Shown here: one piece after another, positions 3,183 to 25,454 of the stretch
Layout: every line of letters starts with the position of its first letter
Numbering within the stretch: position 1 is the stretch's first letter
The notes under the pieces: generated by a model
Told to the model about the DNA's origin: nothing
Databases searched by the model: none
What the model saw: the letters and a program-made list of their open reading frames with translations, nothing else
DNA from: a virus
Length of the DNA: 51,552 bases
Strand: one strand, 5' to 3'
Virus record (IMG/VR): IMGVR_UViG_3300027987_000379
Coordinates: 1-51,552 of that record
Program-made: the position numbers and the translations under genes

Positions 3183-3618
3183 TCCGTTTTAGATGCATAT
3201 CGATCGCGCCCTCGAACGCTTCACGAAACATCCGTCTAACTTTCATGACGGCATTGGGCACTGTCATCGGCAGCTTCCACTGATGCGCCACGTCGATGCT
3301 GAGCGATTCATTAATATGCAGCTTAAGACCAACATGCGTATTCATCTCCGCTGTCCAGGCACAGACAGCGAACTCGAATGATATCCACTCAGGCATGGAT
3401 AATTCACCAAGAAACGCTTCCAAGTCTCCGTTGCAGCGTATCTCATTATTTGGAAACATTGCCCCTTTGACCACCCCGTCCGATTTACAGGATGACATTG
3501 TGCCATTGACATCAAAAAAATGCATCCTCACGGTGTTTCGACGGATAACATTCTTATTGGTGACATGGCGTGGCCTAATCCCATTCGCCGTATTCATCAA
3601 GTCTGTCCTCCCAGTCAA
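3160..3618 (-). CDS. Hypothetical protein
   Basis: A 152-residue protein of mixed alpha/beta appearance with no recognised family. The frame stays open through the overlap with its upstream neighbour 3575-3760 (44 bases). The first Met is poorly placed for ribosome binding and later Mets (residue 8 or 32) are possible starts. It belongs to a compact leftward run of overlapping small genes (4261 down to 2979), all unassigned. Confidence 0.5.
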   Translation of the reverse strand: MTGRTDLMNTANGIRPRHVTNKNVIRRNTVRMHFFDVNGTMSSCKSDGVVKGAMFPNNEIRCNGDLEAFLGELSMPEWISFEFAVCAWTAEMNTHVGLKLHINESLSIDVAHQWKLPMTVPNAVMKVRRMFREAFEGAIDMHLKRNGVKFHY

Positions 3619-3760
3619 CTAGCATCATCTTTATAGGCCACTCTTTAGGCGAAAGCCGGAACTCTCCAGCATAGAACTCTTCAAACCTGTCGATCATGGA
3701 CTTTTTGAGACGAACAAATTCATCTATGGACAGTATGGTCATTGGGTTCATCAATTCCAC
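3575..3760 (-). CDS. Hypothetical small charged protein
   Basis: A 61-residue protein, strongly charged, with a likely helix in 'IDEFVRLKKSMIDRFEEFY' and an acidic C-terminus (WEDRLDEYGEWD). Its start overlaps the end of gene 3751-4095 by 10 bases, typical of coupled translation. No family recognised. Confidence 0.5.
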   Translation of the reverse strand: MELMNPMTILSIDEFVRLKKSMIDRFEEFYAGEFRLSPKEWPIKMMLVDWEDRLDEYGEWD

Positions 3761-4095
3761 CGTTCCGCAGATGCGCTATATGCGGATTTAATCAGTAATT
3801 CAACTTGGCCATCAATCAACTCGACAATCATTAACGACATGGCCGAATAAGAAATGAACATCGCCTTAAGCGATTCAAGCATCCGCATCCTCATCTCCAG
3901 ACACTTGCCGCATCCTGGACTGCATGGTTTTTGTTTCAGCATCCCAATGGCATCTGCTGATGCTTTTGCTGCTCGTGGCATATATTGGACTATGAGGCTC
4001 TGGATGCGTTCAATGACCATCGAGTCTATGTATACGCGAGCGCCGACATCTTGCCAAGCGAAAAAGCAAAGAAAATTACCACGCCATTCCACCAT
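3751..4095 (-). CDS. Hypothetical protein with CxxxCxxC cluster
   Basis: A 114-residue, probably helical protein with a tight cysteine cluster 'CSPGCGKCLEMRMRML' in the middle, which could hold a metal ion. It overlaps both neighbours in the leftward run. An internal ATG at 4020 ('MVIERIQSL') is an alternative start; neither has a clear ribosome-binding site. Function unknown. Confidence 0.5.
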   Translation of the reverse strand: MVEWRGNFLCFFAWQDVGARVYIDSMVIERIQSLIVQYMPRAAKASADAIGMLKQKPCSPGCGKCLEMRMRMLESLKAMFISYSAMSLMIVELIDGQVELLIKSAYSASAERWN

Positions 4096-4261
4096 GTTTG
4101 CAGTGTTTTGCAGCTAACACTTCAGAAATATCTTGAGCTGAAGGTATAGCGACGCGTATACTGGTCTCATGAACACGAGTCCATTTGACCCAATACTTAA
4201 AAAAATGCGCGGGGAACGCTACCCGGAACAATCTTACACATCCATCAGGACGTATTCTCAT
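4076..4261 (-). CDS. Hypothetical small basic protein
   Basis: A 61-residue, basic and aromatic-rich protein ('FPAHFFKYWVKWTRVHE'). It is the first gene of the leftward cluster that ends at 2979 or continues to 1075, and is divergent from the regulator gene at 4351, which makes 4262-4350 the control region for both. No family recognised. Confidence 0.45.
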   Translation of the reverse strand: MRIRPDGCVRLFRVAFPAHFFKYWVKWTRVHETSIRVAIPSAQDISEVLAAKHCKHGGMAW

Positions 4262-4350
4262 AATGACCTGGGATGGATTGGGATGAGACTATTAGATATG
4301 TATTGTTGGCTTTGCAGGCGTGGGATATTGTAGTAATTATAGTAGTGCGC
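4262..4350. promoter_or_regulatory. Divergent intergenic control region
   Basis: 89 bases between the leftward gene starting at 4261 and the rightward ribbon-helix-helix gene at 4351. It is AT-rich near the right end ('GATATTGTAGTAATTATAG') and must hold both start signals, but I see no convincing -35/-10 pair. The adjacent regulator is the obvious candidate to bind here. Confidence 0.35.
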
Positions 4351-4539
4351 ATGGCAAAGAAGAAGACCACAATCAAGATTGCACGCCCGAGGCAACTCAA
4401 CCAGCGTTATACTGAGAGAGAATATGCCCTCATACAGGGAGCAATATTGAGATCTGGCAAAACTCAGAGCGAGTGGATAAGGGATATGCTCGTTTCGTCG
4501 GCTCAGGTATGTCCCTGCTGTCATCAAGAGATTGGGTAG
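4351..4539 (+). CDS. Ribbon-helix-helix regulator with C-terminal Cys cluster
   Basis: A 62-residue protein. 'KIARPRQLNQRYTEREYALI' gives the beta strand and first helix, 'SGKTQSEWIRDMLVSS' the second helix of an Arc/MetJ-type DNA-binding fold. The C-terminus 'CPCCHQEIG' is a small cysteine cluster that may bind metal. The ATG at 4351 is chosen over an upstream in-frame start because the preceding residues are hydrophobic and unlike the family. It stands alone, rightward, between two leftward gene runs, as expected of a local transcription regulator. Confidence 0.65.
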   Translation: MAKKKTTIKIARPRQLNQRYTEREYALIQGAILRSGKTQSEWIRDMLVSSAQVCPCCHQEIG

Positions 4540-4606
4540 TGGGAAAAATGTCAAAAGGAACCCTTGCTGTCTGTTGGTGATACGCTAAATGAAACGCGCT
4601 ATAGAA

Positions 4607-4795
4607 TCACAGCCAATCATTGAACTCCCAGGTAGCAATAGGGTCATTATGGATTTCGCGATTGGCATGCATTTCAGCATCCTGCTCACGCAGAGTACGA
4701 AAATAGAAAAGCCAATAAATATCCCCTAATGGCAGCCCTTGTATCATCACGCTGATGATGATCCAGGATAGTAATTGGTGGCCATTTGGTATCAT
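4607..4795 (-). CDS. Small membrane-associated protein
   Basis: A 62-residue protein with a hydrophobic stretch near residues 7-32 ('LLSWIIISVMIQGLPLGDIY') and a charged, tryptophan-containing tail. GAAGG lies nine bases before the ATG. It is the last gene of the long leftward early operon and converges on the regulator gene at 4351. Function unknown. Confidence 0.5.
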   Translation of the reverse strand: MIPNGHQLLSWIIISVMIQGLPLGDIYWLFYFRTLREQDAEMHANREIHNDPIATWEFNDWL

Positions 4796-4828
4796 TTGAT
4801 GAGTCCTTCATATGGCCAATTTGCCATG

Positions 4829-4972
4829 CTAATTGCAGCAATGAAGAATATAATGATTTTGATCACGGATATGGCGAATACCCTCCAGGTCTACATGGCT
4901 CATTGGAGATGGTTTATGAACCAACAATTGAGCTCGGTCCTGGTTCTCGATCATTGCTGTCAATGATGACAT
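4829..4972 (-). CDS. Possible 47-residue protein
   Basis: An ATG-initiated frame of 47 codons between two better-supported leftward genes, filling what would otherwise be a 221-base gap (4796-5016). No ribosome-binding site and no family. A longer rightward frame opposite it has only a TTG start. Either could be spurious. Confidence 0.25.
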   Translation of the reverse strand: MSSLTAMIENQDRAQLLVHKPSPMSHVDLEGIRHIRDQNHYILHCCN

Positions 4973-5016
4973 GCAATGGTGATCGGTTCTGTGGAGAACT
5001 CGTACGGTTTATTTAG

Positions 5017-5319
5017 CTATTTGTTAGCTATCAGCTCACGATATACTTCAATTGTGCGGTCTAGGGCGTCTTTTCCGTTGCAGCAGATGATGACCGTCTC
5101 AAGGAGTTTGACATATGCACTGTCTCCTCCTCTGTGCTCTTCAATATACCTCTTGAGCTTACCGACTTCGATGATCAGTCTCTTTCTCTCTTCGTCGAGC
5201 CTGTTATTTGCATCGATCGCATTATTCAGACGAAACTGCATCTGATCGAACTCTTTAGCCATATCTTCTCTGCGCTTCTCAAGAAGACTTTCTACCACTG
5301 CCGATTTTTTTACGGTCAT
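5017..5319 (-). CDS. Coiled-coil protein
   Basis: A 100-residue protein, mostly one long charged helix ('AKEFDQMQFRLNNAIDANNR', 'EERKRLIIEVGKLKRYIEEH') predicted to form a coiled coil through about residue 65, then a short domain with paired cysteines (IICC). It starts five bases after the stop of the small membrane protein 5325-5477, so the two are probably coexpressed. Function unknown. Confidence 0.6.
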   Translation of the reverse strand: MTVKKSAVVESLLEKRREDMAKEFDQMQFRLNNAIDANNRLDEERKRLIIEVGKLKRYIEEHRGGDSAYVKLLETVIICCNGKDALDRTIEVYRELIANK

Positions 5320-5324
5320 TGAGA

Positions 5325-5477
5325 TTACCTGTATGGGTGCGCTTTGAGCGATTCTCGCTTTACACGTCGATAGTAAAGACGATGTTTAAGGAGTAAATTC
5401 ATTATTCCTAATGTAACGATTGGGACCTGAACGATTGCCCAAATCAAGATAGCCCATTCTGGGATAATGATGGTCAT
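5325..5477 (-). CDS. 50-residue membrane protein
   Basis: Its ATG overlaps the TGA of gene 5474-5701 in an ATGA junction, the hallmark of coupled translation in this genome. Residues 3-29 are one hydrophobic segment containing 'WAILIWAIVQVPIVTLGIM', followed by a strongly basic tail (KHRLYYRRVKRE), predicting an inner-membrane protein with its C-terminus in the cytoplasm. Function unknown. Confidence 0.6.
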   Translation of the reverse strand: MTIIIPEWAILIWAIVQVPIVTLGIMNLLLKHRLYYRRVKRESLKAHPYR

Positions 5478-5701
5478 GCCGCCCTTTTGCCACAAGTATC
5501 AAAATGGCAGGTATAGATATCCTTGATAACTAGTTCATTGGCGCGTGCCATGAATGCTGTTGGAATGCCATCATCCTCGTTATCGAGCCAAAACCCTTTG
5601 GCTGATGAGTTAGGAACTTCGTCCATAGGCATCCACTCCCCATTCGATGATTTAGCCCAAAAGATTGTCGCTGAACAATTTTTACATACTGTTGTACGCA
5701 T
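5474..5701 (-). CDS. Zinc-ribbon protein, paralog of 12705-13058
   Basis: A 75-residue protein. 'CKNC' near the start and 'CHFDTC' near the end make a four-cysteine zinc site around a central 'WAKSSNGEWMPMDEVP'. Gene 12705-13058 carries the same arrangement ('CKRC', 'WAKSSLGNWIPMD', 'CHRETC'), so these are paralogs from one phage. The family is common in phage early regions but has no known function. Zn-ribbon proteins of this size usually contact nucleic acid or another protein. Confidence 0.65.
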   Translation of the reverse strand: MRTTVCKNCSATIFWAKSSNGEWMPMDEVPNSSAKGFWLDNEDDGIPTAFMARANELVIKDIYTCHFDTCGKRAA

Positions 5702-5713
5702 CCCATCCTCCTT

Positions 5714-6007
5714 TTACTTGGGTCTAATCTCTATCCATTCCACCGGCGTCTCCGCCGCAATCAATTTCAAATCGTTAACTGTCTGCCCTCCGTCTATTCG
5801 GACCATGGCGTCGCCATTATTCATCGACCAGGCAACAACAACTTCTTTGAAGTCTCCATCAATATATGCCATGATGATATCACCGCCAAGACAGCGTGAT
5901 ATTGTTCCGGGAGTTCCCATTTGGGCAGTTTTATCCTTTGGTGACGTCCTTCTCGTGACACTGTTCGGGAATGATTTTTTATCTATGTCTTCTAGCAAAA
6001 TTGTCAT
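5714..6007 (-). CDS. Hypothetical protein
   Basis: A 97-residue protein. The C-terminal two-thirds look like a small beta-barrel ('GDIIMAYIDGDFKEVVVAWS', 'WIEIRP'). It overlaps the DUF3310 gene by four bases (ATGA), which fixes its start. Cotranscribed with early DNA-metabolism genes; function unknown. Confidence 0.55.
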   Translation of the reverse strand: MTILLEDIDKKSFPNSVTRRTSPKDKTAQMGTPGTISRCLGGDIIMAYIDGDFKEVVVAWSMNNGDAMVRIDGGQTVNDLKLIAAETPVEWIEIRPK

Positions 6008-17857: not shown

Positions 17858-19414
17858 ATGCCTGAATTGATGACGTCTATGACCGATGTACCATCTCTGG
17901 ATGTTGCCGGATCGACTGGGCTCAAACATCACGACGGAATGATTGATGAGGAGCATTTGCTTAGACTCCGGGGTCGTAATGCGATCCGGCTGTATCGAGA
18001 GATGATCGATAACAGTCCTGCGATTGGCTCAGCTCTTAATGCAATCAAGATGCTGATACGTCAGGTCAAATGGCGCATTGAGCCGGCGAATGAATCAGAC
18101 GAGGCAAAAATAGAACAGGAGGAAACTGAGACAGCCCTTGAGGACATGAGCCATACGTTTCAGGATTTGATTGGCGAGTCACTTTCGATGATATGGGCCG
18201 GGTTTGCACCATTCGAGATTATTTATAAGTTGCGCAAGGGGCCAGATCAGTCGGATGGGTCTCTGCGTAGCAAATTTAGCGATGGGAAATGGGGGTGGCG
18301 AAAGATTGAAATTAGGGGGCAGGAGACGGTTTCGCGCTGGGTCTTCGATCCTGATGGTGGGATGAACGGCATGGTGCAGATGGATTACCACTCCATCAAA
18401 AGAGGTCCTGTGTTTATCCCTATTGATAAAATGCTCCTGTTTCGTATTGAGAGTTTTAAGGGAAACCCAGAAGGCAAATCCCTCATTAGGCCCGCTGTAA
18501 TCCCGTATTGGTATACAAAGCGCATCCAGGAATTCGAAGCGATTGGTATTGAGAGAAATCTGGCCGGTATGCCTATCATGGAGGTTCCGGCACAAATATT
18601 ACTTTCTAACGCATCTGCGCAGGACAAGTTAATTCGTGCTGCACTGAATAGGTTTGTTACTCAGATAGGGATGGATGAAAGATGGGGGGGCTTAGTTCCT
18701 TCAGAGCTTAGGCCAGACGGGTCTCCTAGCGGATACAAGTTTAAGCTCATGCAGTCTGGCGGAAGCAAGGTGGTCGACACCGATATCATCATCAAGCGAT
18801 ATCGCAGTGAAATGCTCATGTTGTTCATGGCTCAATTCCTCACTATGGGAACGGAAAAGGTTGGTTCATTCTCATTGGCGAGCAATATGACTGATTTGTT
18901 CGGCACTGCCCTTGGCACCATTATGGATAGTATTGCCGATGTAATCAATCAGTTCATGATTCCCAGGCGACAGCGTCTTAATAATAGACCTATTGAGCTA
19001 GATCCGTATATTGTCCATGGTGATATCGAAGGACCTGAGCTTGATAAGCTGGCAACATATATCAATCAACTTTCGAGCTCGGGCATGATTGGACCCAATC
19101 CGGCACTCGAACGCAGGTTGCTAGAGATTGGCAATTTGCCCCAGCCCCCAGAGGAGGAGGCACTGCCTGCCTCTCTCTCTGAAAATGTCGTCGACTCAGT
19201 AAGTAGGACAACGATTTCTTCCGATCAAGTTAGAATGATATTAGATGTCAATCGAGCACTGAAGAACGGAGAGCTCGATAGGCTTGCCGCAATACAGACA
19301 CTCGCTGTCTCTTTGGGAATTGAGACAAAAGATGCCGAGAAGTTCATCCCTTCAAATGTTGCACAAACGCCTGCAGGCACGGAGGAATCTAATGACCATA
19401 GCAACATTCCGTAA
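17858..19414 (+). CDS. Portal protein (Mu gp29/DUF935-like)
   Basis: A 518-residue protein of portal size, directly after the large terminase. 'RGRNAIRLYREMIDNSPAIG' and 'GFAPFEIIYKLRKG' fit the DUF935/Mu gp29-like portal family; the middle ('PEGKSLIRPAVIPYWYTKRI') and the stem region are also typical. The dodecameric portal forms the DNA channel at the capsid vertex and docks the terminase and the neck. AAGGGG lies 5 bases before the ATG. The C-terminal 100 residues are a charged, variable extension. Confidence 0.88.
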   Translation: MPELMTSMTDVPSLDVAGSTGLKHHDGMIDEEHLLRLRGRNAIRLYREMIDNSPAIGSALNAIKMLIRQVKWRIEPANESDEAKIEQEETETALEDMSHTFQDLIGESLSMIWAGFAPFEIIYKLRKGPDQSDGSLRSKFSDGKWGWRKIEIRGQETVSRWVFDPDGGMNGMVQMDYHSIKRGPVFIPIDKMLLFRIESFKGNPEGKSLIRPAVIPYWYTKRIQEFEAIGIERNLAGMPIMEVPAQILLSNASAQDKLIRAALNRFVTQIGMDERWGGLVPSELRPDGSPSGYKFKLMQSGGSKVVDTDIIIKRYRSEMLMLFMAQFLTMGTEKVGSFSLASNMTDLFGTALGTIMDSIADVINQFMIPRRQRLNNRPIELDPYIVHGDIEGPELDKLATYINQLSSSGMIGPNPALERRLLEIGNLPQPPEEEALPASLSENVVDSVSRTTISSDQVRMILDVNRALKNGELDRLAAIQTLAVSLGIETKDAEKFIPSNVAQTPAGTEESNDHSNIP

Positions 19415-19695: not shown

Positions 19696-19826
19696 AATTC
19701 ATCATGATGGTTTGTGCGTTAACATGGCTCATATTCTTTGGTATATGGGCCAAAGAGCGCAAGAAGGTTCATGATGAGGATTGTGTGGTCCATTGCCGTG
19801 ACTTTTGCGAAATGGTTATTAGGTGA
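19689..19826 (+). CDS. 45-residue membrane protein
   Basis: ATG overlaps the previous stop (ATGCTGA). Residues 2-20 are one hydrophobic segment ('FIMMVCALTWLIFFGIW') followed by a charged tail with three cysteines. A frame this short was found by reading the gap between neighbours. Its stop lies seven bases before the next gene. Function unknown. Confidence 0.5.
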   Translation: MLKFIMMVCALTWLIFFGIWAKERKKVHDEDCVVHCRDFCEMVIR

Positions 19827-19833
19827 AGCCCCC

Positions 19834-20787
19834 ATGCCTTTAGTTACAAAAGCGTCCCGTCGCGTACGAAAACCGGCTTGGCAATCAGGACTTAGGGTTC
19901 CCGATAAGGCTCAGAGAGACTCATTGGCGATAGCGGCCAATCATGAACGAAAGTTGTCGGGTGCATTTTACACACTGCTCAGGCAGCTCGTAAGTGATGA
20001 GCTGTTGAAGCAAATATCCATTGCTGCACGAGAGCAGACGGTCACGTTGGCAATGTCGAAGATCCAATTCTTTGACGAGTCCAACCCAGAAACATTTGCT
20101 ATATGGAAACGTTTCGCTGACCGAATTGCCTCTGCATACAGACTCATCATCAATGAAACAATTGAGAACGAGAATCGCAAATATGGCTGGAAATTATCGA
20201 TTGAAAAAGTCGAGAGTCCCACTCTGCCTGTCAATCCTTCGGCCGCTGATTTTATTAGGATCAAGTCATTAAAGGATGCGGTGGGGTTGTCTGAGTCCGA
20301 AAAAAAACGCATCCGGGCAATCCTTACAAAGGGAATGGAAGAGCGCGTAGTCCCTGCATCCATGGTAGACGAGATCAGGGATACCGTTGGGTTAACTGAG
20401 ACTCAGCTGCTAAGAGTGCAAAAAAGAGTTGCTGCTGCTAAGGCGTCCGGGATGAAATCCTCACAGCTTAAAGTTCTGCGTGAGCAGATGTCTGATAAGA
20501 TTAGACTCCAACGTGCTAGAGCCATTGCTAGAACAGAAACAACAGCTGCGATATCGCAGGGATTATCAGAGGCATGGCGGCAAGCCTCTAATAATGGATT
20601 AGCGCCTCCAGAGACAAAGAAACGTTGGGTTGCTGTTCCTGATGCTAGTGAGATTTGCCAGGATCTGGATGGCCAGGAAGTCGGATTAAATGAGAATTTT
20701 TTCAGTAGCGCAGGACAGGGTTTTTCTGGAGACGGCCCCCCCGCGCATCCTAATTGTAGGTCTACGGTTGTGTTGATCTTCCCATGA
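19834..20787 (+). CDS. Phage head morphogenesis protein (Mu gpF/SPP1 gp7-like)
   Basis: A 317-residue minor head protein. The C-terminus holds the family signature: 'ARAIARTETTAAISQG', 'RWVAVPDASEICQDLDGQEV', 'GPPAHPNCRSTVV'. Such proteins enter the capsid with the portal and may be ejected with DNA. The start at 19834 has AGGTGA eight bases upstream; the frame is open further left, but that would overlap the small membrane protein gene. Confidence 0.85.
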   Translation: MPLVTKASRRVRKPAWQSGLRVPDKAQRDSLAIAANHERKLSGAFYTLLRQLVSDELLKQISIAAREQTVTLAMSKIQFFDESNPETFAIWKRFADRIASAYRLIINETIENENRKYGWKLSIEKVESPTLPVNPSAADFIRIKSLKDAVGLSESEKKRIRAILTKGMEERVVPASMVDEIRDTVGLTETQLLRVQKRVAAAKASGMKSSQLKVLREQMSDKIRLQRARAIARTETTAAISQGLSEAWRQASNNGLAPPETKKRWVAVPDASEICQDLDGQEVGLNENFFSSAGQGFSGDGPPAHPNCRSTVVLIFP

Positions 20788-20821: not shown

Positions 20822-23164
20822 ATGCCCTTGATTGAAACATGCACAATTGACGCATTCCGCCAAAATATTCGGACCGAAATTGATTCAGGCTCAAAGCCAA
20901 ATCAGGCGGTGGCAATAGCAAGACGCGTTCTAGAGGAATCGTGCAAAAAGGAGAATAAGCCCATGCCTATGACAATGGCAAAAGCAAACGGCAAAGGTAA
21001 GAGTCGCGAATATCTCGAAGCGGCATTAGAACAGGTGAGGAAGCTTTTGCCGGGATGGGTTTTCGCTATGATTCATCAAGCAGCATTCCCATCCTCTGGT
21101 GGACGAGCGCGACGGAATCGCCGCATCTCTGCTGCAGAGAAGGTATGGATAGAGAAGCGCTCCGTATCCTCGCTGTCCGACACGGAGGTTAGGGAAATCT
21201 TATATAAGCTCAATGTTGCTTTTGCTGCGAACCTCCGGCAGGGAAAGGATGTTTCTCCGATCGTTCGAAGAACAAAGACCGTAGTATTGGAACTCAAACG
21301 AAGGGGTCTGCCATATAGTGGATCCGCCGTTGATGAAGCGATGAAGAAAGGTTTCATCAGGGCAGAATTGCGGCAGGATTGGACGGAAATCGCCAAGGGA
21401 TTCATTAGCGGCGAACCAGACGGCGGTATGCATGCGCACGGCCTGGACAGGATTAATAGCAAGACGCTTTTAGATGGTGGCCATATTCATATTTTTGTGG
21501 TCCCAGGTTCTGGCGAAATTCTTCTGACGGAAGAGGACGGTGCTCACGCTCATGTTATTGGGCGCGAAGGAGTGAGGACTCCATCGGATGGTGTGCATTC
21601 TCACAGGGTCGTCACGCCTAATGGGAGCTCATTGGAGACGAAACTGGACGGTGCTCATTCTCACGAATTAATGGTTGAGACCTCTGGGTTTGGCGGCCTG
21701 CACAATCATGTCTTGGTACTGAGCGATGGCACTGAGATTGAGTCAATGTCACCTGCTGAATTTATTGCCCGATTCGTTAACCTGCCAACGTTGCCATCAT
21801 TACCCATCTACTCATCAAGAGAGATATCCGATGCGCTCAATCAGAAGCGAGAATTGGAATCCGATATATTCGATCAGAATTCGCTAGCGAGTACAGATGA
21901 GGTTATTGCCGAATTCGCAAAAACAGGTGAGATGCCAGAATTTCCCAATACTCATTGGGAGGTTGTCGAATTGGCAAAGGGGGGAGCATGGTGCACTCTT
22001 CTTGATATGGATGAGCCGATCCTTCTTAAAGATGCAAATAAAATCGGCGTTGACGTTGGCGACATTGTCGAAGTGGACAACTTTGGACAAATCATCAAAT
22101 ATGCGCAATCCTGTGAACCCCATACATTGCAGGATGCAAATGAGATTGCATCCTATAATGCCATCATAGGCGATGCGATAGATTCTGTTTCATTTGTCGG
22201 TCCGCAGGATGCCAAGATTGTATTTGTCTCTGCGAGCCCATGCCCACTAGAATTTGCGCGCAAAGAAGCTCTTGCAGGTCCAGATGGTGAGATATTTCAA
22301 GATAGATATCTCACCCCGCTTGGGTTAACAAAGAGCGATGTTGCGGTTGGGTTCTCGATCCCTGTTCGATGTGAAAACCCGGATGATGAGCAAATTGATT
22401 TATGGAGAGATAGCCTGTTGAAATCATTGGCTCTATATGATCGTGCAAAGGTTGTTGCGCTGGGTCGCGTAGCGAAGCAAGCATTGGGTCCGCTTGCGGA
22501 ATTTTCACTTCCCCATCCAGCCGCCATTCGCCGTCATGGTGATAGAGGTGAGGTGAGTCGTAAACTCAAGTCGATCCGCAAAGTACTTGACAATATGCAA
22601 GGCAACGTTGATTCTGAATCAAGCTACAGCTCTGGACCGAGAGAAGGTCAATCTGCAGCGACCCTCGCTGATACCATAAGTGAGCTGAGAGGTAGCGGAA
22701 GTCTTCGCGTGGCAGTTACGAAGTCGTTACCAGAAAAGCAAATCGTTTATGGTGTTATCCTGGATCCATATCAGGTTGATTTGCATAACGACTGGATACC
22801 TCCCGCTGAGATTGAGGCTACAGCTCATGACTTTATGACTAAGTCACGTGTGATTGGCCTTCGTCATACTGGCAAGGCTCAAGCCGAAGTGGTGGAAAGC
22901 TGGGTTGAGGTATATCCAACAAAAGAAGACAGGGAGCTGGCATTGCAGAACCTTGCGCACAAAGCGTACCGAAGAAAGTTCGGCGATGACCTGGTGCATT
23001 CTGGAGCCTGGATTGCTGGCGTTAAACTCTCAGATGACTTGTGGGAATCGCACAAGCGTGGGGAGCTCGATGCGTTCAGCATCGGCGGATTCAGTTTTAA
23101 GACGAAAGTATCGACCGATGCGATGCCAGAGGTTGAATTCGTCGATTTACAGCCAGCTTCATAA
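20822..23164 (+). CDS. Head polyprotein: His-x-His repeats, UDG-like domain, XkdF protease
   Basis: A 780-residue fusion. Residues 1-45 resemble short 'KPNQAVAIA' modules; 60-190 are helical. Residues 199-297 hold six G-x-H-x-H units (GMHAH, GHIHI, GAHAH, GVHSH, GAHSH, GLHNH) that could bind metal. Residues about 462-592 look like a uracil-DNA-glycosylase superfamily domain ('DAKIVFVSASPCPLEFARKE', 'LPHPAAIRR'). Residues 625-763 match the XkdF-type prohead protease ('VYGVILDPYQVDLHNDWIPP', H681 in 'LRHTG', S753 in 'FSIGGF'). It lies between head morphogenesis and scaffold genes, the place of the maturation protease. Domain calls are by pattern. Confidence 0.75.
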   Translation: MPLIETCTIDAFRQNIRTEIDSGSKPNQAVAIARRVLEESCKKENKPMPMTMAKANGKGKSREYLEAALEQVRKLLPGWVFAMIHQAAFPSSGGRARRNRRISAAEKVWIEKRSVSSLSDTEVREILYKLNVAFAANLRQGKDVSPIVRRTKTVVLELKRRGLPYSGSAVDEAMKKGFIRAELRQDWTEIAKGFISGEPDGGMHAHGLDRINSKTLLDGGHIHIFVVPGSGEILLTEEDGAHAHVIGREGVRTPSDGVHSHRVVTPNGSSLETKLDGAHSHELMVETSGFGGLHNHVLVLSDGTEIESMSPAEFIARFVNLPTLPSLPIYSSREISDALNQKRELESDIFDQNSLASTDEVIAEFAKTGEMPEFPNTHWEVVELAKGGAWCTLLDMDEPILLKDANKIGVDVGDIVEVDNFGQIIKYAQSCEPHTLQDANEIASYNAIIGDAIDSVSFVGPQDAKIVFVSASPCPLEFARKEALAGPDGEIFQDRYLTPLGLTKSDVAVGFSIPVRCENPDDEQIDLWRDSLLKSLALYDRAKVVALGRVAKQALGPLAEFSLPHPAAIRRHGDRGEVSRKLKSIRKVLDNMQGNVDSESSYSSGPREGQSAATLADTISELRGSGSLRVAVTKSLPEKQIVYGVILDPYQVDLHNDWIPPAEIEATAHDFMTKSRVIGLRHTGKAQAEVVESWVEVYPTKEDRELALQNLAHKAYRRKFGDDLVHSGAWIAGVKLSDDLWESHKRGELDAFSIGGFSFKTKVSTDAMPEVEFVDLQPAS

Positions 23165-23188: not shown

Positions 23189-24037
23189 ATGCCCAGTGCT
23201 GTGAACATGCTTACCGCCGTTCAAACGGCAGAGGTGAGCCTTGTGAAGCGTGGTGCGAATAATAAACGTTTCGCATTAACGAAATCGGAGGAAAAGATGC
23301 CATTTAATGAATTGGCCAAGACGGTCTTGGAGGTTGAGGCAGAGGGTGAAAGTAAACTTGTTGAGACATTGAAAGCATCTGGCGTCGCGGATGATGTGAT
23401 CGATGTAGCTGTGGCTAACTTTCGCATTCAGAGCGGATTTAAGGACAAGCTCAGCAAGGACGCATTTGATGTAGTAGCCAAGTCATCCGGCTATGCTACT
23501 GCAGAAAAGAAAGCGGAAGAGAAGGTTATTGAGAAGGCTCATACGCCTATTGAGATGCCTGAGGAGATGCGCAAAGCATTCGATGACCAGCAAGCTGAAC
23601 TGGTTGCTCTTCGCAAGGAAGCTGCGGAAAAAGACGAGCGAATCAAAAAGATTGAAAAGGCAGCAGCCTTAAAAGAGTACATAACCAAATGCGAATCTCA
23701 GTATTCGCATGTCCCTGGCCTGTCCTCGGAAGAGATGGGCGACATGCTGCAAAAGGCTTATGCCATTAGCAGCGATATGGGCCAAAGGCTTGAGAAAACA
23801 TGGGCTGAAACATCGCAGGCACTAAAGAAGTCCAGACTGTTGGCTGCGCAGGGTGTGACGTCCATCAATGATGGAAGTGGAACAGCTTGGGGCAAGATGG
23901 AGACGCTTGCCAAGGAGCTTGTTTTAAAAACGAACGGTCTTTCTAACGGCAAAGCGATGAAGATTGTCATGGAACAAAATCCTGAGCTTTACCAAGAGTA
24001 TCTAAACGAGAATCCTGCCCAGCAGGGTCGTCGATAA
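23189..24037 (+). CDS. Capsid scaffold protein
   Basis: A 282-residue protein. The N-terminus 'EVSLVKRGANNKRFAL' is a motif found at the start of protease-linked scaffold proteins; the middle is a long charged coiled coil ('MRKAFDDQQAELVALRKEAA', 'EKDERIKKIEKAAAL'). It sits between the protease and the decoration/capsid genes, the usual scaffold position. A good GGGGG ribosome-binding site precedes the ATG. It probably directs prohead assembly and is then cut by the upstream protease. Confidence 0.75.
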   Translation: MPSAVNMLTAVQTAEVSLVKRGANNKRFALTKSEEKMPFNELAKTVLEVEAEGESKLVETLKASGVADDVIDVAVANFRIQSGFKDKLSKDAFDVVAKSSGYATAEKKAEEKVIEKAHTPIEMPEEMRKAFDDQQAELVALRKEAAEKDERIKKIEKAAALKEYITKCESQYSHVPGLSSEEMGDMLQKAYAISSDMGQRLEKTWAETSQALKKSRLLAAQGVTSINDGSGTAWGKMETLAKELVLKTNGLSNGKAMKIVMEQNPELYQEYLNENPAQQGRR

Positions 24038-24058: not shown

Positions 24059-24433
24059 ATGGCATATGAAAATGTTAGTCATACTGTCCCCGGTATTGCT
24101 GCCGGTGCTGATCTGACCGGTTCGCAAAATCGGTTTGTATCTATTGACTCTACTGGTCGTGCTGTATTGACGGGCGCTGGCGCGCGAGTAGACGGTGTTG
24201 TTGGTAATAAACCAAATACTGGAGAGCCTGTATCAATGATTGGATATGGGTCTGTTGCTAAGGTGGAAGCTAGTGCTGCTATTGCGCTTGGTGCCTCCGT
24301 TGCGTCTGCAGCGAACGGGCAGGCGGTCACAGCAACCCTGAATGCATTTATTGCTGGCGTGTGCGTGAGCGCTGCAGGTGCAGCTGGGGAGCTTTGTTCT
24401 GTATACCTCGCATCTCATGGGCAGTCGCCGTAA
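24059..24433 (+). CDS. Head decoration protein (DUF2190-like)
   Basis: A 124-residue glycine/alanine/valine-rich beta protein ('VSHTVPGIAAGADLTGSQNR', 'GVVGNKPNTGEPVSMIGYGS', 'GELCSVYL'). This is the pattern of DUF2190 cement proteins that trimerise on the capsid surface. It is directly before the major capsid gene, as in many phages. Confidence 0.8.
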   Translation: MAYENVSHTVPGIAAGADLTGSQNRFVSIDSTGRAVLTGAGARVDGVVGNKPNTGEPVSMIGYGSVAKVEASAAIALGASVASAANGQAVTATLNAFIAGVCVSAAGAAGELCSVYLASHGQSP

Positions 24434-24485: not shown

Positions 24486-25454
24486 ATGCCTCAACCAACC
24501 GCATCGGATGTACATGTTAATGCTCCGCTCACAAACGTGAGTGAAGCATTTTTGCAGGACCTGAAAGGGTTTGTGGCCCGCCAGGTATTCCCTGTCGTTC
24601 CTGTGTCTAAGCAGAGCGACAGATATTTTAAATATGATAAAAAACAATGGTTCCGTACGGACGCCAAAGTGCGTGGACCTTCAACTGAATCAGCAGGTTC
24701 CGGGTTCACGATTGATAATACGCCGACATACTTTGCTGATGTCATCGCATTGCATAAGGATATTGACGATCAGATTCGTGCCAATGCAGATTCTGTTATT
24801 AATATGGATAATGATGCAACGGAATTTGTAACCCGCCAATTATTGCTGCAACAAGAGCTTGATTGGGCATCGAAATATTTTACGACTGGTGTATGGACAG
24901 GGTCCACGACTGGATCAGACGTAACACCCGGCGTTCTTTGGGATGTCCCCGCGACGTCTAATCCCATTGAAGACTTACGAGCGCAAATTACGGCGGTAGG
25001 AAAAAATTCAGGATTGGAAGCAAACACCCTAGTTCTTGGTAAAGAAGTTTGGGACGTTCTTGCAGATCATCCTGACTTTCTTGAGCGCATCAAGTTCACC
25101 CAGACCGCCGTTGTGGCTCCAGACCTGCTTGCCGCGGTCTTGGGTATCGATAGGGTTTTGATTGCCAAGGCAATTCAGGACACTGCCCAGGAAGGCGCTG
25201 CGTCAACCCATGCATTTGTACATGGGAAGAATGCCCTGGTAACATATGCTGCTCCACGTCCTAGCCTGATGCAGCCAAGCGGTGGTTACACCTTCGCATG
25301 GACAGGGTTCTTGGGGGCGAATGCTGCTGGGATGCGTATCAAGAGGTTTCGCATGGAGCATTTGTCTTCTGATCGCATCGAAGGCGAAAGTGCATATGAC
25401 CATAAGGTAGTGTCACCTGAAGCTGGTGCGTTCTTGACTGGTGTTATTTCATAA
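24486..25454 (+). CDS. Major capsid protein
   Basis: A 322-residue protein. It opens with 'NVSEAFLQDLKGFVARQVFP', then has 'VITMHKDID'-like spine helix residues ('ADVIALHKDIDDQI') and ends with the lattice-forming P-domain strands ('GYTFAWTGFLGANAAGMRIK'). Length, order (scaffold, decoration, capsid) and pattern fit an HK97-fold major capsid protein. An RNA hairpin follows the gene at 25470. Confidence 0.9.
   Translation: MPQPTASDVHVNAPLTNVSEAFLQDLKGFVARQVFPVVPVSKQSDRYFKYDKKQWFRTDAKVRGPSTESAGSGFTIDNTPTYFADVIALHKDIDDQIRANADSVINMDNDATEFVTRQLLLQQELDWASKYFTTGVWTGSTTGSDVTPGVLWDVPATSNPIEDLRAQITAVGKNSGLEANTLVLGKEVWDVLADHPDFLERIKFTQTAVVAPDLLAAVLGIDRVLIAKAIQDTAQEGAASTHAFVHGKNALVTYAAPRPSLMQPSGGYTFAWTGFLGANAAGMRIKRFRMEHLSSDRIEGESAYDHKVVSPEAGAFLTGVIS

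Follow-up and report, generated by a model that had tools for sequence, protein, structure and literature searches.

A phage prohead protease joined to a uracil-DNA-glycosylase-like domain and a six-unit His-x-His domain, and its relatives with other DNA-directed partners

The window analysed here is the whole of the IMG/VR record IMGVR_UViG_3300027987_000379 (51,552 nt), which belongs to a contractile-tailed phage. Its head and tail genes run in the order terminase, Mu-type portal, MuF, fused protease, scaffold-like protein, cement and major capsid protein E, followed by tail sheath, tape measure and baseplate (Table 1). The fused ORF starts with ATG, is uninterrupted by stops and lies between the portal/MuF and the scaffold/major capsid genes, the usual location of XkdF proteases. 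The first-pass annotation had described it as a single 780-residue chain with an N-terminal module, six repeats, a UDG-like domain and an XkdF protease, and this architecture is borne out by Pfam, by the AlphaFold2 model and by homologues. Three homologues keep the same domain order without frame breaks at 56-66% identity to the window protein, and two further ones (L121 and L105) have the window-type order. The homologue L004 lacks the first ~45 residues, so that the two-helix module (residues 1-43) is missing from it in the alignment, and its contig stops 10 residues early. The model led us to redraw the domain limits as given in the table and to add a small beta-barrel (residues 376-428) that had been overlooked. 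We considered whether this barrel might be the remnant of a ligase OB domain, and rejected the idea after a profile comparison with the ligase C-terminal region of relatives gave a probability of 1.6%. The helical 'LPGW' module is common to the window group, and a similar stretch stands immediately N-terminal of the UDG domain in L059, L082 and L120. As for the neighbouring gene, the scaffold-like protein starts 'TAEVSLVKRGANNKRFALTK' (window positions 23189-23300), a match to the beginning of phrog_3017, which is a family of head maturation proteases; hence, the boundary between protease and scaffold varies among phages.

Table 1. Features of the fused gene and of the surrounding head genes (positions in the window)
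Feature	Positions	Strand	Basis or remark
Mu-type portal protein	17858..19414	+	
MuF-like head morphogenesis protein	19738..20787	+	
Whole fused gene, XkdF-type prohead protease with N-terminal modules	20822..23164	+	780 aa
N-terminal two-helix module (residues 1-43), phrog_2423-like	20822..20950	+	phrog_2423 E 4e-9; model pLDDT ~90
Helical 'LPGW' module (residues 55-175)	20984..21346	+	alignment, AlphaFold2 model
Six-unit His-x-His domain (residues 199-310)	21416..21751	+	motif count, conservation; model of moderate confidence only
HxH unit 1 (H204, H206)	21431..21439	+	
HxH unit 2 (H221, H223)	21482..21490	+	
HxH unit 3 (H242, H244)	21545..21553	+	
HxH unit 4 (H259, H261)	21596..21604	+	
HxH unit 5 (H279, H281)	21656..21664	+	
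HxH unit 6 (H294, H296)	21701..21709	+	
Small beta-barrel (residues 376-428), conserved 'GD[IV]VE[VL]'	21947..22105	+	pLDDT ~95, five-stranded
UDG-superfamily fold domain (residues 455-593)	22184..22600	+	Pfam PF03167, Foldseek
Degenerate UDG motif A, S470-A-S-P-C474 (family 4: GExPG)	22229..22243	+	
UDG motif B, kept, H565-P-A-A-I-R-R-H572 (family 4: HPSxxxR)	22514..22537	+	
Low-confidence linker between UDG and protease (residues 597-629)	22610..22708	+	pLDDT <50
XkdF / Peptidase_S78_2 protease domain (residues 630-763)	22709..23110	+	Pfam, conserved His/Ser
Scaffold-like protein	23189..24037	+	
Cement/decoration protein	24059..24433	+	
Major capsid protein (family E)	24486..25454	+	

The AlphaFold2 model of the full-length protein, built from a 28-row alignment (A6), has a mean pLDDT of 78.5 and a pTM of 0.41, which suggests that the domains are individually confident and their mutual arrangement uncertain. 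The UDG (~95) and XkdF (~90) domains have the higher pLDDT values, the His-x-His part ranges from 45 to 78, and values fall below 50 in the linkers 51-62, 176-203 and 597-629, the last of which is a possible release site. When the model was compared with a library of viral structures by Foldseek, the best matches were unnamed proteins of 789 and 892 residues, with about 490-560 columns in the alignment; XkdF proteins and polymerases came next.

The first-pass annotation had staked its proposal on two folds, a protease at the C-terminus and a UDG in the middle, and both are there. Pfam matches PF14550 (XkdF/Peptidase_S78_2) to residues 632-758 with an E-value of 1.1e-18 and 67.8 bits, for a cut-off of 24. 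No solved XkdF structure was found among the matches of the protease domain, whose identity comes from its sequence family and from predicted viral structures. H682 and S753 are near-invariant in the 28 alignment rows, one His and one Ser are invariant in 101 members, and these two residues are our candidate catalytic pair. The domain and its gene position resemble those of known XkdF / Peptidase_S78_2 proteases (PBSX XkdF, PaP1 gp048, HHTV-2 gp38). Yet, the XkdF proteases of the isolated phages examined are mostly about 120-350 aa long and have no recognised enzymatic cargo, whereas some 600 residues precede the protease in the window protein. In Pakpunavirus-type phages the XkdF protease bears the annotation 'DNA methyltransferase' (phrog_1530; PaP1 gp048 is L014 in our set). 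This label misleads for PaP1 gp048, which is no more than a 156-aa protease, and it may derive from genuine fusions of D12 methylases with XkdF.

Pfam places the UDG superfamily at residues 460-575 (E 1.8e-7, 31.8 bits for a cut-off of 24.3) and repeats the call in three homologues (E 3e-7 to 5e-6). The best 50 Foldseek matches of this part in the PDB all belong to the UDG superfamily; the leading ones are UdgX and the family-4 enzymes of T. maritima and T. thermophilus (1l9g, 1ui1, 6iob etc.), with the family-4 UDG 1l9g at the top (E 1e-7). The window protein thus shares its fold, and the HPxxxR pattern of motif B, with the family-4 UDGs (T. maritima TM0511, Tth UDGa) and UdgX. The active site is another matter. 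Work on UdgX and family-4 UDGs (PMC10359453, PMC10776899) singles out the Glu of motif A, an aromatic side chain that stacks against uracil, an Asn that recognises the base and, in motif B, a His and an Arg. Of the five family-4 positions that we checked, three are replaced in the window protein (Glu by A471, Phe by L484 and Asn by F511), and S470-A-S-P-C474 stands where family 4 has GE[AG]PG, whereas the motif B His (H565) and the Arg contacting the DNA backbone (R571) remain, with the Ser of motif B changed to Ala. The UdgX mutants N91A and F65A have lost activity (PMC10776899). The KRRIH loop, which holds the cross-linking His of UdgX, was not found in the stretch of the window protein that separates motif 3 from motif B, and the match of the domain to TIGR03914 is far under the cut-off. 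Hence, the UDG fold and its DNA-contact surface are retained, but uracil excision by the window protein, as implied by the base-excision function first proposed for it, is unlikely. In this protein the UDG-fold piece probably serves to bind DNA or lesions and does not work as a uracil glycosylase. The third position of motif A, a catalytic Asp or Asn in families 1-3, is Ser in the window protein and polar in many members, and given this Ser some other chemistry is possible. A search of the whole 51,552-nt record found no second UDG.

The nearest match to the UDG-like domain in phage records is in a polymerase of Microcystis phage Mvi-JY20 (33.7% identity, E 2e-3). The two have a similar motif A, of SSAPCDEE type, but that of Mvi-JY20 is partnered with a replicative family-A DNA polymerase and that of the window with a capsid protease. 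In this polymerase (L005) the UDG-like domain is N-terminal and an intein lies within the polymerase domain.

The six-unit domain had been annotated as G-x-H-x-H units at residues 199-297. The number of units stands; the motif is better written H-x-H, with a Gly one or two residues before it. Six such motifs are far from what composition alone gives, since 2,000 shuffles of the protein had a mean of 0.64 and a maximum of four. The six-unit layout holds in nine non-redundant proteins with identities as low as 36%, none of the 12 histidines varies among them, and the spacing is constant at both ends (17 for the first, 15 for the last). Given these invariant histidines, we infer metal binding, and the domain is probably a metal-stabilised beta structure. 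Modelled alone it has a pLDDT of 66, and this low-confidence monomeric model, like the sequence, found no match in the PDB (best E 0.9). A search of 146 Myxococcota genomes found no relatives, but it had no positive control and so shows little. The domain occurs on UDG-bearing proteases (window, L002, L003, L004, L105, L121), on proteases with no recognised enzyme (L008/L043, L090) and on a protease with a D12 methylase (L198); in L090 it is attached straight to a minimal 300-aa protease. Its carriers occupy four places on the XkdF tree, which makes it an independent module. Beta-rich sequence with repeated His-x-His is also a trait of the YmaF family (PF12788), and phage fibre tips (T4 gp37) contain metal-binding HxH repeats. 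The window domain differs from both by its constant six-unit layout and its capsid-protease context. Pfam matches to YmaF stayed at 10.5-14.5 bits in three homologues, for a cut-off of 27 (E 0.05-0.9), and none was listed for the window protein.

To place the fusion among its relatives we made a census of XkdF ORFs, using scans with protease-domain alignments together with earlier loci. It has 203 ORFs, or 111 non-redundant ones at 80% identity. Naturally, a sample seeded from chosen proteases by similarity is biased, and its counts indicate breadth, not frequency. Among the 111, our own profile finds a UDG domain in 34, and Pfam in 18 at E <1e-3. Pfam further finds a D12 adenine methylase in 24 and an ATP-dependent DNA ligase in 11, and, in a few, 2'-5' RNA-ligase-like, AAA_33, ChaB, DUF5824 or Tad3 domains; these Pfam tallies cover 101 members plus individual scans of the ten longest. 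The ligase motif I Lys (K.[DN]G) and the methylase DPPY are discernible in most carriers. The largest chains combine several partners. L134, an open frame of 1,846 codons in a search of the whole record, joins to XkdF a D12 methylase, a second methylase, a ligase and a UDG (E 2.4e-25), and also has a weak match to the LigD phosphoesterase. Six other ORFs (L138, L136, L149, L116, L047 and L155) have this order in shorter form. These single ORFs of 1,054-1,846 aa thus combine ligase, UDG and XkdF, in most cases with one or more methylases, in the slot of the capsid protease; chains with the methylase(s) as well as ligase, UDG and protease measure 1,100-1,846 aa, and the weak LigD-phosphoesterase-like match is found in two of the ORFs. 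A scaffold-like gene lies immediately downstream in 81 of the 111 members and in 32 of the 34 with UDG, and a portal or MuF gene lies upstream in 28 of these 34, contig ends explaining at least some of the gaps. The fusions therefore fill the protease slot of the head operon. The combination had been presented as a lone oddity, which it is not: UDG and HxH are separable, and each is found apart from the other on the same protease. What had been proposed more generally, a DNA-directed module made in one chain with a maturation protease, is strengthened by relatives fused to ligase, adenine methylase and better-preserved UDGs.

Preservation of the UDG domain varies among these relatives. The His-Pro of motif B is retained in 33 of the 34 UDG-bearing members. 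Asn and Phe are kept jointly only in members bearing a ligase, and the motif A Glu is missing from all ligase-bearing members and essentially from the whole UDG-bearing family. Marine-type members have lost or shortened the central UDG strand and the Asn motif but retain motif B. In a tree of the XkdF domain, where 111 rows and only 133 columns leave many forks open, the six proteins with UDG and HxH, including that of the window, form one clade (support 98/71). UDG-bearing members appear in both main groups, and the ligase-bearing ones require several changes. Modules have thus been gained or lost again and again around a constant protease.

What might a maturation protease do with such partners? 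Our preferred reading, to which we give a probability of about one half, is that the gene encodes an XkdF-type prohead maturation protease as part of a polyprotein, whose N-terminal cargo is directed at DNA and goes into the prohead together with the protease. The C-terminal protease would co-assemble with scaffold and major capsid protein, so that the N-terminal part is carried into the prohead. The protease would then cut flexible linkers (597-629, perhaps 176-203), and folded pieces too big to exit would stay behind with the DNA, to act on it while it is packaged or once it has been ejected. Packaging, ejection and cleavage, like metal binding, are predictions for the window protein. The cargo reading is supported by the ligase-, methylase- and UDG-fused proteases that relatives have in the same gene slot. 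There is also precedent for its steps: in SPN3US a prohead protease cleaves head proteins and internal head proteins are ejected, and more generally prohead proteases of other phages cut head proteins and themselves inside the prohead, and internal head proteins can reach the host by ejection (PMC10052503). Yet, the general expectation is that propeptides removed by a prohead protease exit the head (PMC10052503), the His-x-His region is weakly modelled (pLDDT 66) and without structural match, and many XkdF proteases are cargo-free (e.g. PaP1 gp048, 156 aa), so maturation does not need cargo.

Alternatively, the N-terminal modules may be aids of head assembly: the UDG fold, the His-x-His domain and the helical modules would bind DNA, portal, scaffold or metal, position or time the protease, and be digested and expelled at maturation. 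Marine-type members that keep motif B without the central UDG strand and Asn motif fit a structural or DNA-sensing role of this kind, as does the His-x-His domain set directly on the minimal protease L090. But a purely structural role leaves unexplained why ligases and methylases at the same position retain catalytic signatures, and we regard it as a possible but doubtful account. These same enzymes have obvious roles in cytoplasmic replication, and one might imagine the fusion as a co-expression device, with the polyprotein cut in the cytoplasm and its enzymes acting there. This is improbable, because the gene is in the head operon, away from replication genes, and phage maturation proteases cut head proteins within proheads (PMC10052503). 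It is hardly less unlikely that the middle domain functions as a uracil-DNA glycosylase and removes uracil from packaged or incoming phage DNA. Its fold is nearest to family-4 enzymes, the motif B His and Arg are in place, and other members retain the uracil-reading Asn and the stacking Phe in the same chain as a ligase. However, this has to contend with A471, L484 and F511 in the window protein, with the inactivity of UdgX N91A and F65A (PMC10776899), and with the loss of the motif A Glu in every ligase-bearing member and essentially family-wide.

The cargo reading can be extended to the family, more tentatively. XkdF would then be a dedicated head-loading route by which ligase, UDG, phosphoesterase-like domains and adenine methylase travel as self-cleaving polyproteins, to mend and disguise the genome at entry. 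The window protein would be a derived member, its UDG having become a sensor of DNA or lesions that no longer excises and is coupled to the metal-binding domain of six units. There is a parallel with the polyvalent proteins of phages and conjugative elements, which combine disparate domains, including DNA-targeting enzymes, are encoded beside late virion genes and have been proposed to travel with the DNA (PMC5512222). The window-type fusions likewise have several disparate domains in one chain among late virion genes. That study stresses processing by zincin-type domains, whereas here the prohead protease itself would do the processing, and XkdF polyproteins with ligase or UDG were not seen in its relevant passages (PMC5512222).

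In the open-access full texts searched, we found no account of an XkdF protease that is joined to a UDG or a ligase. The UDG-bearing fusions that we found are all on metagenomic contigs; with the queries used, none turned up in 50,697 phage records, and a scan of genome contigs with the full-length alignment returned no relatives. Yet, the C-terminal part of phrog_14859, named 'RNA ligase', matches the window protease, which suggests that databases already contain chains of this kind that have gone unnoticed. The window gene belongs to a larger group, apparently not yet described, of shell proteases joined to enzymes that repair or methylate DNA. Every component was already known; what seems new is the multi-domain prohead protease with its putative DNA-directed cargo. 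The fused enzymes may travel in the virus head as cargo. If so, the maturation protease doubles as loader and releaser of internal head enzymes, which would explain why ligases, methylases and UDGs are fused to a capsid protease. Virion-delivered DNA repair would become directly testable, and the region N-terminal to XkdF would be a sequence handle for head cargo in metagenomes. Even under a weaker reading, the UDG family offers a graded loss of the uracil pocket with the DNA-contact motif retained, a natural series for studying the change from glycosylase to binding module.

Other partners of XkdF surfaced along the way. Domains of 2'-5' RNA-ligase-like type (2H phosphoesterases) lie N-terminal of XkdF in L178 and L109, and one XkdF member (alignment A8) matches the Thoeris inhibitor Tad3; both kinds of domain are possible anti-defence cargo. 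A DUF5824-like domain is N-terminal of XkdF in L051, L076, L091, L102 and L188, mostly alongside a UDG-like domain. D12 adenine methylase-XkdF fusions are present in L026 and L037, which are Myxococcota genome contigs and probable prophages. The ligase gene of the archaeal ANMV-1 virus (L203) was considered as an example of the fusion in a named virus and ruled out, since XkdF and UDG are absent from it. This gene (3200-5800) directly follows a portal-like gene and has an apparent LigD-phosphoesterase-like C-terminal part, and the first ORF of the same virus (22-1176) is rich in HxH.
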